From a virus: 41,649 nucleotides of DNA. Both the position numbers and the translations under genes were made by a program. The stretch spans positions 1 through 41,649 of the IMG/VR virus record IMGVR_UViG_3300046747_000310; one strand, 5' to 3'. Positions 4,378-40,804 of this stretch are shown in pieces. Numbering within the stretch: position 1 is the stretch's first letter; each line of letters starts with the position of its first letter. Below the pieces are notes generated by a model. That model had not been told where the DNA came from. It made no database searches and was given only the letters and a program-made list of their open reading frames with translations.

Positions 4378-4568
4378 TGACCCAACGCGAAGAAGCAGAG
4401 ACGATGCTGGCTCGTGTGCAACAACTCGCCGCACAGGGCGACATTGCTTTAGCGCGAGTTGAAGCACACGCGTTGCACGAGTTCGCGCTGGCGTTGAAGG
4501 ACAACACGCCGGAGTCGATCGCGATTCTGTCGATCGCGGTGCGGACTAGACGAGTGGAGGGGTTGTAA
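4377..4568 (+). CDS. Small helical hypothetical protein
   Basis: A 63-residue, almost entirely helical protein starting at an ATG that overlaps the lipoprotein stop (TGATG). It has no cysteine or membrane segment. Its TAATG end is coupled to the nuclease gene at 4568. It may be an accessory to the recombination pair that follows. Function unknown. Confidence 0.55.
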   Translation: MTQREEAETMLARVQQLAAQGDIALARVEAHALHEFALALKDNTPESIAILSIAVRTRRVEGL

Positions 4569-5434
4569 TGGTCACCAAGTTCATCGACGACGTTGACCTT
4601 GACGAGTATTACGGTGGAACGCTTACGCCGTACGCAGCCCTGAGCCAATCGGTTGCGCATGAGTTGGTTTCGCGATCGCCTAAGCATGCGTGGGCCAAGC
4701 ATCCGCGTCTAGGTGGCCACGTGTCCGAGCCGAGCGATGAGATGGAGCTAGGTAATGTGCTTGACGAATTGGTGTTGGGCGGTTCGCGCCGCATTCAGTC
4801 AATACCGTTTGACGACTATCGTACCAATGCAGCGAAGGCGGCTCGCGACGCCGCGCGCGCAGACGGCAAGATCCCGGTGAAAGAGTCGAAGCTGATTACG
4901 CTTCAGGCCGTGGCAGAGCGCGCAAAGAAATCGTTCAGCATGGCTGGCGTAGAGCTAACCGGGCTGTCTCAGGTATGCATTTTGTGGGAATCGCGTGCGA
5001 CGAATGGCGCGCTGGTACAGTGCCAAGCGCTACTCGATCACGTGCTTGTTGATGACGGGTTGATTCTGGATCTGAAGACTGCCGACAACGCCAGTCCTGT
5101 CAAGCTTGGAGCCAAATGCTTCGCGCTTGGTTACGAGATTCAGAGTGCGGCGTATCGAGAAGCGTTCGTTGCATGCTTCCCTGAGTTCGTTGGGCGCACT
5201 CGGTTCCGTAACTGTTTTCTAGAAACTAGCTGGCCTCACGTGACAGTTGTCACTGAGATGGATGGCGAGATGTCTGCGCTTGGTGAGGCGCGGTGGCGCC
5301 GTGCTGTAGATACGTGGGAGGAATGTTTGCGCACCGACACGTGGCCTGCGTATACGGCGCCGCGCGAAGTGCTCCGCGTATCACCGCCGAGTTGGGCTAT
5401 GGCTGAAGAGATGATGCTTACGGAGGCTGTGTAA
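4568..5434 (+). CDS. PD-(D/E)XK exonuclease (RecB/Cas4/RecE-like)
   Basis: A 288-residue nuclease. The catalytic region shows D157 in ALLDHV, then LILDLKTA with the D168-x-K170 core, and a Q192-x3-Y196 motif in EIQSAAYREAF. These are features of the RecB/Cas4-type PD-(D/E)XK superfamily. The N-terminal LSQSVAHELVSRSPKHAW and LGNVLDELVLG segments are typical of phage homologues that process DNA ends for recombination. The TAATG start is coupled to the upstream gene. The next gene is a Sak4-like ATPase at the TAATG junction at 5434, a common phage recombination pair. It would make single-stranded ends in the host cytoplasm. Confidence 0.88.
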   Translation: MVTKFIDDVDLDEYYGGTLTPYAALSQSVAHELVSRSPKHAWAKHPRLGGHVSEPSDEMELGNVLDELVLGGSRRIQSIPFDDYRTNAAKAARDAARADGKIPVKESKLITLQAVAERAKKSFSMAGVELTGLSQVCILWESRATNGALVQCQALLDHVLVDDGLILDLKTADNASPVKLGAKCFALGYEIQSAAYREAFVACFPEFVGRTRFRNCFLETSWPHVTVVTEMDGEMSALGEARWRRAVDTWEECLRTDTWPAYTAPREVLRVSPPSWAMAEEMMLTEAV

Positions 5435-10538: not shown

Positions 10539-10939
10539 CCACCGCGCGCCAACTGCTGAAGTGCACGGACGTGATGGCGATCACAGCGCTGTCACGGTCC
10601 GCGGCGTACGCACTTATGGAGCAGCTTGGCGCGCTGAAACTTGGCCGATCGACACGGTTGCAAAAGAAGCGACTTGATGACTACCTACGGCGCCTGGAGG
10701 CTGACCGATGGCAGACGTCTACACTCGAACCATGCGCAGTGGTGTCAAAGTCCACTACGCCGACTGCTACTACTGGATCAACGGCGCAAGGAAGCGCTGC
10801 CAGCGAAGCACCGGTATCGTTGACGATGGAACCGCAAAATCTAAACGGACGGCCGAAATCGTTGCTCGTGATATCGAGTCATCGCTCGCGGCTGGCACAG
10901 GCCGCCGCGCGAAGCCAACGACCCTCGGCAAAGCCATAG
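10535..10939 (+). CDS. AlpA/excisionase-like DNA-binding protein overlapping integrase
   Basis: Residues 1-60 form a winged-helix of the excisionase/AlpA type: LLKCTDVMAITALSRSAAYA, then GALKLGRSTRLQKKRLDDYL. The normal size of this family is about 60-75 residues. Here the frame continues to 134 residues, with the extra 75 residues lying inside the integrase start in another frame. That tail is Ser/Thr/Ala/Pro-rich and looks like out-of-frame sequence. The protein would direct integrase toward excision and bend DNA at the attachment site. GTG 10535 overlaps the previous stop. Confidence 0.7.
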   Translation: MTTARQLLKCTDVMAITALSRSAAYALMEQLGALKLGRSTRLQKKRLDDYLRRLEADRWQTSTLEPCAVVSKSTTPTATTGSTAQGSAASEAPVSLTMEPQNLNGRPKSLLVISSHRSRLAQAAARSQRPSAKP

Positions 10940-11805
10940 ACATGCTGATTGAGAAGCGCGAAAGGTCGGGTCGGTCGGACAAGACGTGCGCTGCGATCGT
11001 GTCGTATGCGACGCCGATGTTTCGATTCTTCGGGTCCAGCACGCTGCTGCAGGATATCTCAGCAGAGCGCGTTGCCAGCTTCGTTGCGTACCGCGAAGCA
11101 CAGAAGCGCGTAGCCGGCACGATTCGAAATAACCTGCTCACCCTTGGCGCGGCGTTCGGAGTGGCCGGCGTTGAGCAGCCAGCCTTTCCAGAAGTCAGCA
11201 AAAAACCAGTGGTCCGCGAACGCTGGCTGAACGAGGATGAGCAGCGGCGGCTGCTGGCCGTGGTTTCACCCGAGCGCCGTTTGCACGTGCTGGCGTACCT
11301 GCGAACTGGCTGCCGAAAGTCGGACCTGTGGAAGATCGAGTCAATCGACTGGGACGCACGAGAGATGCGCGTTCGTGGAACCAAGACGAAGGGGAGTGAT
11401 CGCACCGTGCCGATTGACGGCGAGCTCTACGAGGCGATGTTCGAACGCCGGCACGAACGCGAGATGTTCACCAAGTGGGGACACAAGGATGCAGCCAAGG
11501 CCATCAACAGGTACGGTGTGCGGGCCGGGCTTGGTAAGATCTCGTTCAACACGCTGCGCCACTCATTCGCTACGCAGATGGCCATCGCGGGCGTGCCGAT
11601 TCTGTTCACCGCGAAGCTGATGGGGACGTCGGTCCGGATGCTGGAACACGTCTATACGCACGTGTCCGCTGGAAAGCATATGCATGAGGCGCTGGCGAAG
11701 CTTCCACCGCTCACCCGTGCAACGACAGTGACACAGAATCAGCGTGAGCAGAGGACGCTGCGGACGACTTCAGACCACGAAAACCCGCAGGAATTGCCCA
11801 ATTGA
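10708..11805 (+). CDS. int: Tyrosine-type site-specific integrase
   Basis: A 365-residue tyrosine recombinase. The ATG at 10708 has GGAGG seven bases upstream. An N-terminal arm-type/SAM-like region (about 65-165) precedes the catalytic domain. Catalytic residues: R203 (TGCRKSDL), K228 (TKTKGSDRTVPI), R284 and H285 (NTLRHSFAT) and the nucleophile Y316 (LEHVYTH). The usual HxxR first His is Asn281, and the LGH His is Thr307 (LMGTS), a variant known in several phage integrases. The protein inserts the phage at a host attachment site. No attP core was identified. Confidence 0.92.
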   Translation: MADVYTRTMRSGVKVHYADCYYWINGARKRCQRSTGIVDDGTAKSKRTAEIVARDIESSLAAGTGRRAKPTTLGKAIDMLIEKRERSGRSDKTCAAIVSYATPMFRFFGSSTLLQDISAERVASFVAYREAQKRVAGTIRNNLLTLGAAFGVAGVEQPAFPEVSKKPVVRERWLNEDEQRRLLAVVSPERRLHVLAYLRTGCRKSDLWKIESIDWDAREMRVRGTKTKGSDRTVPIDGELYEAMFERRHEREMFTKWGHKDAAKAINRYGVRAGLGKISFNTLRHSFATQMAIAGVPILFTAKLMGTSVRMLEHVYTHVSAGKHMHEALAKLPPLTRATTVTQNQREQRTLRTTSDHENPQELPN

Positions 11806-30054: not shown

Positions 30055-30310
30055 GGCTGCGCTCCTGTTCCTTGCGCTTCATGTCGAGCTGTTTGCTGTA
30101 CACGCGGTTGTCGATCGCGTTGTACATCGCGATGCCTTCAACCAGCTTATGGCTAGGTTCAGGCTCAACAAACGCAAGCTGACCAGATTCATGGAAGCGC
30201 ATCGCGGTCTGCACGCGCTGGACGAATGGATCAGAGAAAGCGCGCCATGGGCAAGTACCCACGTCGTGTCCCGTCATTTCCTCCATCGTCTTGCGAATCC
30301 CGTGCGTCAT
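30047..30310 (-). CDS. Tail assembly chaperone T-like protein
   Basis: An 87-residue protein. The ATG at 30310 has AGGA about seven bases upstream, so it can be made alone. HDVGTCPWRAFSDPFVQRVQ and GQLAFVEPEP resemble the T domain of tail chaperones. It lies between the G-like gene and the tape measure. Its frame is -1 to the G gene and is open for about 86 codons upstream. A G-T frameshift product, as in lambda, is possible. Confidence 0.6.
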   Translation of the reverse strand: MTHGIRKTMEEMTGHDVGTCPWRAFSDPFVQRVQTAMRFHESGQLAFVEPEPSHKLVEGIAMYNAIDNRVYSKQLDMKRKEQERSRA

Positions 30311-30372: not shown

Positions 30373-30978
30373 TTAGACGGCGGCGGCCTGCTCTGTGGTG
30401 GTCCCTGTCGCGCTTGGCGTCTGTGCCGTAGACACCGAGGGCTCTGCGTTGTTCGTCGCTGATGCAGTGGTCTGGCTCAGCTCCGCAAGGCGGAATCGAC
30501 GACGTTCCAAATGTTCGACCACAAAAGACGGCAGCGGCAAGCAAAGTCGCATCTTTCGGGGCAAAAAAGAGTGCTGGTAGATCACCCGTCCAATCTCTTC
30601 GCGCTGCGAAGGTGGGAACCGTGCGGCTTCCTCATCGGTCATCATCGTGTGCTTGCCACGCTTGACAGCAGGCTCCCATGATGTTACGGCCACACCGTCT
30701 TCACCGACCAGGCTCTCAACCTTACGCACGCCAGCGATGAACGCCTTGTACCAGCGCTCATAGTCGTTCGACGTGCCGGCCATGATGTAGCTCTCCCACA
30801 ATCCATGCGGAACTTCGCTGACGTGGAATATGGTCGGCTTCTCACCAGGCACCCACTTGCCGTCAACGATCTTGAAATCGCGATCGCGGATGTACTCGAC
30901 GACTTCGTCTACCGTGAGCGCCGACGTGTCTAGAGCTTCATCTAGCACGCATATGACTTTGAACTGTTGATCACGCAT
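30373..30978 (-). CDS. Tail assembly chaperone G-like protein
   Basis: A 201-residue protein starting at ATG 30978. A mixed alpha/beta N-terminal half (DQQFKVICVLDEALDTSALT) is followed by a helical middle (EEAARFPPSQREEIGRVIYQ). The last 35 residues are Ala/Thr/Ser-rich. It precedes the tape measure gene by two genes, the usual place of the G chaperone, which coats the tape measure before tube assembly. The T frame overlaps its end by 190 bases. Confidence 0.65.
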   Translation of the reverse strand: MRDQQFKVICVLDEALDTSALTVDEVVEYIRDRDFKIVDGKWVPGEKPTIFHVSEVPHGLWESYIMAGTSNDYERWYKAFIAGVRKVESLVGEDGVAVTSWEPAVKRGKHTMMTDEEAARFPPSQREEIGRVIYQHSFLPRKMRLCLPLPSFVVEHLERRRFRLAELSQTTASATNNAEPSVSTAQTPSATGTTTEQAAAV

Positions 30979-38030: not shown

Positions 38031-39305
38031 TCAGTCGGTGGCTGGCATCGGTATGATCACACGCTTGCCATCTACGATAGCTGCGATGTGAGTGGCGCCA
38101 GCTTCACGAGCAGCCTGAAGCCTATGCCGACCATCCTCCAGAATGTAGTCTTGTCCGTTGGACTTCGTTTCGGCGGACACGTCGGAGCCAATCTTGATCG
38201 GCTCAAGGTACTTCCCCGTGTCACGCGCAGGCGATAGACCAGCCGCGATCGAGTTCGCTTCATCCGGAGTTGCGCCGTCGTACGCACCGCGGATTGGACC
38301 CATGTCACGCATGCCACCGCGTAGGTAGTCAAGCTGCGAATCGTCTAGGCCAGACACTGCCTCTTTCACTGGCTCTGGTAAACGCTGCGCGGACTGCTTG
38401 GCCAACGCTTCATCGAACTGGTCGTTAGCTGGCAAAGGAAGCTGTCGCGGCGTCGACTTGATGCGCGCAACCGGCGGTCCTTCGAAACCATCGACGGGGG
38501 CGTACTCGGCTGGCAATCGATCGACGATCTCGTACTGTTCAGCATCGGCACGCGATAGGCTTACCTGAGAGCACCTACACTGAAAATGTCTCGGCGGAGC
38601 GACCTCCTTCCACAACTCACCCTTCGCATCGAACACGAGATTGTGCAGAGGTGAGCAGTGATCGCATACGCGTGCGTCGTCAACGCTGCGAAACTGTATG
38701 TACGGCATCGCATCCTGAACATCAGGATCGGACAGCGCGCGGAAGCGACCAGCGCCGTATGCGCTCTGCACGTTCGTGCGGAACACCATGTCTAGATACG
38801 ACGGTTCAGCTTGCGAGATCCCTAGCGACTCAAGCTCACTGTTCACGTCGTCTGCGAACTGCGCCTGTGATGTTCCGCTGGCGATCGCGTCATCCAAACG
38901 CGCCATCACCGTGCTCTGGATCTGCTCCAGCATCAACTTGCGTGCGACGTCGCTACGCTCAGCGTATCCCTTGAGCAGCGTCTCAAAGTCGCGGTCGCTC
39001 ATCAGTCCGCGGTCACGGAAGTACGCCAGCGCTTCGTCCCACGGCATGTCCAGGAACGGTTGCACGGTACCGTCTGCCGCTGCCAGCTTCACCAGTTTCG
39101 CATCATGGCCGTACACCATCAGCTGACCAGCTAGGTCGCTGCGCACGGCAGGATCAAAGATAGCGTCGCCGATCTGATCGTACGCCGCTGGTTTCTTCGC
39201 CCACTGCGCCAGCTTCTTACGAACGCCACCAGGCGACTTGGCGGATCGCAGTATGCCGACGATGTCAGCGCGTACAGAATCCATCGCAGGCGCGATCTCT
39301 CGCAA
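38031..39305 (-). CDS. Mu gpF-like minor head protein with ParB-like C-terminus (frame expressed by -1 shift from portal)
   Basis: The 424-residue region from the first in-frame start codon (TTG 39305). The MuF-like core has FRTNVQSAYGAGRFRALSDP, then a zinc-like CDHC, and PPRHFQCRC. Residues ~350-410 resemble the ParB/sulfiredoxin fold (LEDGRHRLQAAREAGATHIA). No in-frame ATG, GTG or TTG precedes 39305, yet the frame is open upstream to the slippery site at 39467-39473, where a portal-to-gpF shift is likely. The combined product would be about 924 residues. Alternative: independent start at TTG 39305 or ATG 39284, without a good Shine-Dalgarno. Confidence 0.75.
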   Translation of the reverse strand: MREIAPAMDSVRADIVGILRSAKSPGGVRKKLAQWAKKPAAYDQIGDAIFDPAVRSDLAGQLMVYGHDAKLVKLAAADGTVQPFLDMPWDEALAYFRDRGLMSDRDFETLLKGYAERSDVARKLMLEQIQSTVMARLDDAIASGTSQAQFADDVNSELESLGISQAEPSYLDMVFRTNVQSAYGAGRFRALSDPDVQDAMPYIQFRSVDDARVCDHCSPLHNLVFDAKGELWKEVAPPRHFQCRCSQVSLSRADAEQYEIVDRLPAEYAPVDGFEGPPVARIKSTPRQLPLPANDQFDEALAKQSAQRLPEPVKEAVSGLDDSQLDYLRGGMRDMGPIRGAYDGATPDEANSIAAGLSPARDTGKYLEPIKIGSDVSAETKSNGQDYILEDGRHRLQAAREAGATHIAAIVDGKRVIIPMPATD

Positions 39306-39316
39306 CCCGCGTACGA

Positions 39317-40804
39317 TTACCGTCGCCGGTCGACCGATGCGCCGCGAAGCGCTTGCGCGAGCTTCGTTGCCGAGGGCAATGAAGTCGGCGAAATCGTGCT
39401 GGTTGGCGACGACGTGCGGGTCATCGCTACCGCCGTTTGCCGCCCACTCGAGGAGCGGCGTAGAACTTTTGGGTCTGGCGCTGCCTCGATCGTGGCGCTC
39501 ATCGCTGCCGCAGCAGCTTCATCCACCGAACCGTGAGTGCCAACTGCACGTTCAGAAGGCGCGACACCAGACGATGCAACGCCCTGCTCAATAGCATCCT
39601 GCTTGTCTACCTGGACTTCATCGCCGGCCGTCTTAGCTTCCCACGTCGGCACTGGAGGCATGCCGCCGCCGAACTTGTGGACGTTGAGCGTCAACAGCCA
39701 CTTGAAGTAGCTGCGCTCGATCGTGCCTGACAGCGCGATGCCGTCGGTGACCATGCGCGGATCGGCGGTGACGCCTGCGCGAGTGGTGACCGCTGCCTGC
39801 GAACCGCTCTTGCCTGGATCGGTGATGTCCGATGCGCCCATGATGAGCTTGCCAAGCCGAGCCTCGTAGCGGTTGAGCATGAGCTCGAACATGTTGCTTG
39901 AGCTCGTGGTCAGTGTTGAGCTCTGAAACACGATCTCGCCGCCCTGCTCAACTACAGCAACGTGGTCCGACGTTAGGTCTTCAAGGTTCTGTTTGATTTC
40001 GTTGCGAACAGACTCAGGCGTGTTCGCCGCAACCTTCGCGTAGATGAACGGCTTGCCGTGCTGCTCGGTCGCATTGAGCGCCCAGCGATCCGTCCAGCGC
40101 ATGAACAGCCAGGTCCAGATGCCAGGCCGCATGACGCCGGCCACGCTCGGGTAGCCAGCAATCTCCTGGTGCCGGTGCACAACGAACCGACGTGGGTCCA
40201 GGACCTCGCCGTATATATCGTTCGTGCCGTTTCCTTTGCCGGCGCGCATGCCGCGATCGTAGAGACGCGGCAGCCACTTCTCGTCATAGCGAAAGCGGTG
40301 CGTGTGCAGCGGAAGGAAGCGCCGCACGTAGTACGTCGGGTCGCTATCCGGCCCGTCGCGCATCCACTCCATCTCTGCGAAGGACTGGCCAACGAAGATG
40401 GCGTGCAGCAGATGCTTGATGGTCGACTGGAAATCCTCAACGCGAGCCATCTGCGACCGCACGAAGTCAGCGGCCTGCTTGGCCAGCGTGGGGTCGCCAA
40501 ACTTCGATGGGACGACGTTGAAGCTGGCCTGGGCTACGCGGCTAATGCGCGTGACGTAAAGACTCGCGAGCGTCGCGTCAGTCGAGATCGCAAACTCAAC
40601 CAGGTCCGCCCAGTCGTCCAGGTAACCTTGGTCCAACTTCCACAGGATGGCTGTGAGCTGTGGCGCCCACATGTCACCGAAGCGACCGCTAGCCGACGTG
40701 TTGAACCGCTCGTACCGGCTGATTGGCGCGACAATGCCGCGCGGTGCCAAACCAGATCCAGGCCCGTGAATCTGGACGTAGCCGGACGAGTTGAGTGGCG
40801 CCAC
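39317..40804 (-). CDS. Portal protein (DUF935, Mu gp29-like)
   Basis: A 495-residue protein starting at GTG 40804. The DUF935 features include FARIS... near the N-terminus, HLLHAIFVGQSFAEMEWM, RFVVHRHQEIAGYPS, KLIMGASDITDPGKSGSQAA and a terminal IERSYFKWLLTLNVHKFGGG. From the K of DPK (residue 446) on, the frame is R/S/T-rich and ends after 50 codons; the -1 frame instead reads like real protein. This and the structure at 39439-39487 argue for a -1 shift here. It forms the ring through which DNA enters. Copy 3 of the 19-bp element lies 34 bases upstream. Confidence 0.88.
   Translation of the reverse strand: MAPLNSSGYVQIHGPGSGLAPRGIVAPISRYERFNTSASGRFGDMWAPQLTAILWKLDQGYLDDWADLVEFAISTDATLASLYVTRISRVAQASFNVVPSKFGDPTLAKQAADFVRSQMARVEDFQSTIKHLLHAIFVGQSFAEMEWMRDGPDSDPTYYVRRFLPLHTHRFRYDEKWLPRLYDRGMRAGKGNGTNDIYGEVLDPRRFVVHRHQEIAGYPSVAGVMRPGIWTWLFMRWTDRWALNATEQHGKPFIYAKVAANTPESVRNEIKQNLEDLTSDHVAVVEQGGEIVFQSSTLTTSSSNMFELMLNRYEARLGKLIMGASDITDPGKSGSQAAVTTRAGVTADPRMVTDGIALSGTIERSYFKWLLTLNVHKFGGGMPPVPTWEAKTAGDEVQVDKQDAIEQGVASSGVAPSERAVGTHGSVDEAAAAAMSATIEAAPDPKVLRRSSSGRQTAVAMTRTSSPTSTISPTSLPSATKLAQALRGASVDRRR
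39439..39487 (-). promoter_or_regulatory. Probable programmed -1 frameshift site (portal to gpF)
   Basis: On the minus strand: SD-like GAGG (39487-39484), a 10-base gap, the slippery heptamer C CCA AAA (39473-39467) in the portal frame, a 7-base spacer, then a hairpin of GCCGCTC (39459-39453) and GGGCGGC (39445-39439) with a 7-base loop and one G-U pair. This layout is like dnaX. After the shift the frame continues into the gpF-like gene without a stop. Confidence 0.72.

Follow-up and report, generated by a model that had tools for sequence, protein, structure and literature searches.

The locus raises the question of how a phage makes a minor head protein whose reading frame opens inside the portal gene and runs on for some distance before any start codon appears. 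The window analysed here is the whole 41,649-nucleotide stretch of the viral record IMGVR_UViG_3300046747_000310. On its minus strand, a zero-frame ORF at 39317..40804 (GTG start at 40804, stop at 39319-39317, 495 aa) encodes a Mu-type portal (Portal_Mu, PF06074; E 4.3e-47, 161.5 bits against a curated cut-off of 23.9). The Pfam match covers residues 72-420 and places the portal core domain at 39545..40591. A second minus-strand ORF, in the -1 frame relative to the portal, occupies 38031..39518, being open from 39518 after the stop at 39521-39519, and the two genes overlap by approximately 200 nt. This ORF carries the MuF core domain (PF04233) at 38565..38909 (E 2.8e-16, 60.7 bits against a curated cut-off of 29.6) and matches PHROG 220, a minor head protein, with E 1.4e-34. 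Reading the whole -1 frame for ATG, GTG and TTG gave a TTG at 39305 as the earliest start, followed by an ATG at 39284. The original prediction, of a portal followed by MuF in the -1 frame with no start codon before 39305, was therefore correct on both counts, the ORFs and the codon usage agreeing on the two-frame layout.

Structural data were available for one partner. Portals of the window's type have solved structures (8rka and 9khx), while a sequence search for a solved MuF structure found none. For the -1 frame product encoded in the window, a structure predicted from that single sequence was uninformative (mean pLDDT 41.7). The C-terminal part of MuF (38170-38034, minus strand) reads DYILEDGRHRLQAAREAGATHIAAIVDGKRV, which by eye recalls ParB/Srx-type nucleotide-binding folds, with no Pfam confirmation.

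To locate the change of frame, codon usage was modelled on 16 genes elsewhere in the window, without reference to the position of any slippery sequence. The portal frame had the codon usage of a coding sequence only to about 39469, its final ~50 codons being an out-of-frame tail; the -1 frame was preferred from about 39466 onwards, and the switch from portal to -1 frame was placed at 39469-39427 (95%). A slippery heptamer, C_CCA_AAA (CCCAAAA), lies at 39473-39467 in phase with the portal frame, and it is the sole in-phase X_XXY_YYZ motif from the opening of the -1 frame (39521-39519) to the portal stop (39319-39317). Across the 49 codons between the heptamer and that stop, the -1 frame was favoured by 11.3 log units. 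Had the portal frame been the coding one, the expected value would have been -32 ± 11; about 4000 samples drawn from other genes of the window all fell short of 11.3. Both the heptamer and the loss of coding character in the portal frame beyond it had been proposed beforehand, and both held. So did the size of the product of a -1 shift at this site, 446+478 = 924 aa.

The heptamer belongs to a shift-prone class and sits at the end of a zero-frame ORF that overlaps a -1 ORF. In E. coli, C_CC.A_AA.A is among the shift-prone motifs and falls in the efficient V_VV.A_AA.R class (PMC4066793). In-phase heptamers are scarce in the window's genes, with nine in 7,558 codons, two of them of the V_VVA_AAR class. 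The chance of finding one in a 16-codon interval is accordingly 1.9% for any heptamer and 0.4% for the efficient class.

Two candidate stimulators had also been proposed. An SD-like GAGG at 39487-39484 is indeed present 10 nt upstream of the heptamer, within the 10-14 nt taken as the distance for such elements; it comprises four bases only, and an SD-like 4-mer occurs at such a distance in 5% of codon positions. The predicted hairpin, a possible 7-bp stem-loop with a bulge at 39459-39439, begins 7 nt downstream of the heptamer with a free energy of -13.7 kcal/mol. It ranked in the top 0.2% against random in-gene positions, yet was no stronger than dinucleotide shuffles (z = -0.54), so high GC alone could explain it. 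The hairpin was consequently not accepted as an established element.

A two-frame layout of this kind could also arise in a gene that is truly in frame, either through an error of one base in sequencing or assembly or through an indel that inactivated it recently. A single portal-MuF fusion would then be made with no slipping. In-frame portal-MuF genes do exist, in 20 non-redundant loci of the related group described below and in some Microbacterium phages (PMC7302621). Against this, the codon switch coincides with the one in-phase heptamer of the overlap, with the low chance values given above, and a run as short as C3A4 would be atypical as an error site. The remaining structural ORFs of the window are intact, making a noisy contig unlikely. 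We regard an error or indel as rather improbable.

Relatives were sought so that the arrangement could be compared between phages. No close relative turned up in viral contigs by portal, MuF or major capsid, in genome contigs by portal, or among 195 genomes from the phylum to which a Myxococcales match belongs. The best known portal match was only 29% identical (Faecalibacterium phage Mushu). An alignment of nine phage portals was tried as a search query and discarded as too divergent. The distant matches included RcapMu, and Rhizobium phage RR1-B was found to have the same layout; in both, the frame change falls at a run of A's. Scanning with the RcapMu portal produced 80 viral loci, and two more scans added named bacterial genomes and further viral loci. 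A profile-based survey then yielded 228 junctions, of which a non-redundant set was placed on a tree.

One large, mostly alphaproteobacterial group of Mu-like phages and prophages carries an A run at the portal-MuF junction, in 71 non-redundant loci. The run is present in 71/71 by construction of the group, hereafter the A9 clade, and comprises nine A's in 66 loci, eight in three and ten in two. At ordinary portal-MuF loci it was found in 0/60. Fifty-three A9-clade loci, totalling 446,824 bases at 62% GC, contained no other A or T run of at least 8, and lysine is encoded by AAA in only 23% of cases in these loci. The run occurs in the complete chromosomes of Pseudooceanicola spongiae (CP045201) and Agrobacterium vitis (CP056047), and in cultured or deposited phages as A9 (RR1-B, RcWaterboi and EBPR siphovirus 4) or A8 (RcapMu). 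The window lies outside this clade and has no such run.

In the A9 clade, the frame of MuF relative to the portal varies, being -1 in 50 loci, 0 in 20 and +1 in one. Nine changes are required on the tree to account for the in-frame state, and well supported branches force seven of these; the run persists throughout. When the first 12 in-frame loci were inspected, the slipped -1 frame met a stop within 5-11 nt in 11, so that the short form would result from slipping at these loci. Slipping would then yield whichever of the two forms is not the default. Ribosomal stimulators were not apparent at the runs, with an SD-like motif in 1/71 and downstream structure the same as at random positions (p 0.52). 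By the published criterion, transcriptional slippage is indicated when a homopolymer is retained while the frame relation varies among orthologues (PMC3711429). Nine A's or T's form an efficient slippage site in vivo, and T. thermophilus dnaX uses a run of this length (PMC5009743). Because the run is fixed while the frame flips, and neither SD nor structure signals accompany it, we infer from these sequence patterns that the A9-clade device is programmed transcriptional slippage. The A9 of the -1 loci does contain an in-phase A_AAA_AAA on which ribosomes could shift, and ribosomal -1 frameshifting would thus be an alternative in these phages. This is unlikely given the lack of stimulators, the presence of nine A's in 66 of 71 loci although seven would suffice, and the retention of the run whether MuF is in frame 0 or -1. 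The original prediction had invoked a dnaX-like signal. The relatives carry the A9 run, whose features point to transcriptional slippage and not to a dnaX-like ribosomal signal of the E. coli type.

Comparison of the junctions also identified what is joined. Ordinary Mu-type portals have a terminal helical domain (motif ...A...A.L.GR) as part of the portal ORF itself. The same domain comes after the run in the A9 clade and heads the MuF ORF, with E values of about 1e-8 to 1e-15. Structure prediction of an in-frame fusion (18 sequences, mean pLDDT 57) suggests that the A9 run encodes part of an unstructured linker before a three-helix segment. In the window, a region resembling this domain is encoded after the shift, at 39111..39323 on the minus strand. 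The HMM match is weak (12.1 bits), and it scored above 2000/2000 shuffles with a profile of ordinary portals and above 1999/2000 with a wider profile. The portion beyond the shift, first taken to be MuF alone, begins instead with the domain that ordinary Mu-type portals hold in their own ORF. Read in this way, the short product would be the portal core without the helical domain, and the long product would be the portal, this domain and MuF. Four further loci (L134, L142, L164 and Mx4) that appeared odd proved to be ordinary, with the C-terminal domain inside the portal ORF.

The annotated MuF starts (GTG or TTG) of four phages fall inside the portal C-terminal domain, at 4191 in L005, 3973 in L249, 4024 in L250 and 4185 in L004 (RcapMu, RcWaterboi, EBPR siphovirus 4 and RR1-B). 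These starts are probably artificial products of annotation.

In twelve loci (L056, L058-L060, L079, L116, L119, L123, L222, L224, L225 and L227) the A run has been lost and the portal C-terminal domain is permanently N-terminal in a MuF that is started separately at an ATGA or GTGA overlap. Run-less loci such as L056, L058 and L079 fall inside the A9 clade on the tree, and their position there suggests that the short form works as a portal.

The first eight of these loci (L056, L058-60, L079, L116, L119 and L123) are also precedents for a reading of the window in which no frameshift takes place and MuF, as a separate protein, is made by ribosomes that terminate at the portal stop at 39319 and reinitiate at TTG 39305 or ATG 39284. 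The TTG lies 12 nt past that stop, the homology to the C-terminal domain begins near 39323, and most of the domain would be kept. Such a mechanism would leave unexplained the apparent coding character of the 49 codons before 39320, which is seen in the -1 frame and not in the portal frame, and neither start shows an evident SD sequence. Reinitiation therefore appears unlikely.

Taken together, programmed recoding that joins portal and MuF is the explanation that we favour for the window and consider probable: a 924-aa fusion would be made by a -1 slip and would co-assemble with the short form, giving low-copy MuF at the vertex. The majority of ribosomes would stay in the zero frame of the portal and terminate at 39319, producing a portal core that lacks the C-terminal helical domain and ends in an arbitrary tail of ~50 residues. 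Some ribosomes would slip -1 on C_CCA_AAA and produce the 924-aa protein, composed of the portal core, the portal C-terminal domain and MuF. The fusion would then join the short form in the portal ring and so bring MuF to the portal vertex in low copy. The two frames, the lack of a start codon, the position of the codon switch, the heptamer and the same gene join in distant phages can all be read from sequence; that slipping occurs, its efficiency, the assembly of mixed rings and their function are what these features lead us to infer. The frameshift fusion as originally predicted was thus upheld as the best explanation, strengthened by the finding that distant relatives join portal and MuF at the same domain boundary, and was amended in two respects, namely the domain at the head of the post-shift portion and the device used in the relatives. 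The fixed portal-to-fusion ratio then proposed may set the copy number of gpF. The signal in the window is of the ribosomal type, and its best reading appears to be that the ribosome has been recruited convergently to make the same join.

Other features of the window were recorded alongside. An 18-bp repeat, GGTACATTTTTTTGCACT, is present on the minus strand in three exact copies (0.01 expected), at 40856-40839 before the portal, at 38025-38008 right after MuF and at 22954-22937. The copies sit at operon boundaries and are possibly phage late promoters, which would place portal and MuF on one transcript. A sigma-54 promoter was considered for the repeat and dropped, the GG to GC spacing being 11 and not 10. 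The portal-MuF unit is flanked by two short lipoprotein-like ORFs of similar size (41418-40861 and 37937-37368, minus strand) with no family match in Pfam or PHROG. At the tail-chaperone position (30978-30047, minus strand) there is a second -1 overlap, with an in-phase T_TTT_TTG at 30568; the codon switch is poorly localised there (30627-30327), and the second gene may just start near 30310. A tyrosine-type integrase (phrog_1) at 10708-11805 and an exonuclease VIII at 4568-5434, both on the plus strand, indicate a temperate phage that has a Mu-like head and integrates, as opposed to a Mu-like phage that transposes.

MuF-type proteins are presumably low-copy head proteins near the portal, and gp7 of SPP1 reportedly binds the portal protein gp6. 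A recoded portal-MuF pair would explain how MuF comes to be at the vertex in low copy, with stoichiometry set by slipping and placement by covalent fusion, such that a minority of fusion subunits in the portal ring may deliver MuF in a set proportion. More tentatively, and with somewhat more doubt than confidence, a short portal plus a long portal-C-domain-MuF protein could be the ancestral strategy of one branch of Mu-like heads, kept by interchangeable devices (A9 transcriptional slippage, ribosomal slipping on C_CCA_AAA, or a two-gene split), with some ring subunits carrying MuF covalently. Portals are described as homododecamers; if this proposal is true, the rings of these phages would be hetero-oligomers by design.

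Programmed slipping as such is already known, as are in-frame portal-MuF fusions (PMC7302621). No paper describing a recoded portal-MuF pair was found in the literature searched, the 2016 recoding review and the main text of the GeneTack survey included, and earlier notice of it is possible. Recoding of this pair seems to be a genuine means of making two portal forms that has mostly escaped attention. One close counterpart is RcapMu (NC_016165), which has the same layout and an annotated MuF start within the portal C-terminal domain. It differs in having an A8 run in place of the window's C3A4 heptamer, and its frameshift is suspected in a deposited GenBank note, which describes a short portal and states that a 'possible +1 frameshift would allow readthrough'. 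The fusions of Microbacterium phages in clusters EA3/EA5/EA8 and EB (PMC7302621) likewise place portal and MuF in one polypeptide, but are encoded by a single ORF with no recoding reported and one product expected. The phage tail chaperones gpG/gpGT of lambda and other recoded phage structural genes share a dedicated -1 shift by which a minor fusion is produced at a fixed ratio, and differ in serving tail assembly or capsid extension instead of the portal vertex.

Another system that corresponds closely is dnaX, in which tau and gamma are produced by a ribosomal -1 shift in E. coli and by transcriptional slippage at nine T's or A's in Thermus thermophilus (PMC5009743, PMC3711429). The genes differ, being here a phage portal and MuF, and the long form of the A9 clade is usually in the -1 frame and sometimes in frame. 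As in dnaX, a short and a long product would share an N-terminus in a set ratio, and the A9 clade has both the run of nine and a stop shortly after it in the slipped frame. Homologous dnaX genes slip by ribosome or by RNA polymerase according to lineage, and the portal-MuF join is probably made in the same two ways, by the ribosome in the window and by RNA polymerase in the A9 clade. The portal-MuF pair would thereby add a dnaX-like case in which slipping by RNA polymerase and by the ribosome appear to serve one gene pair.
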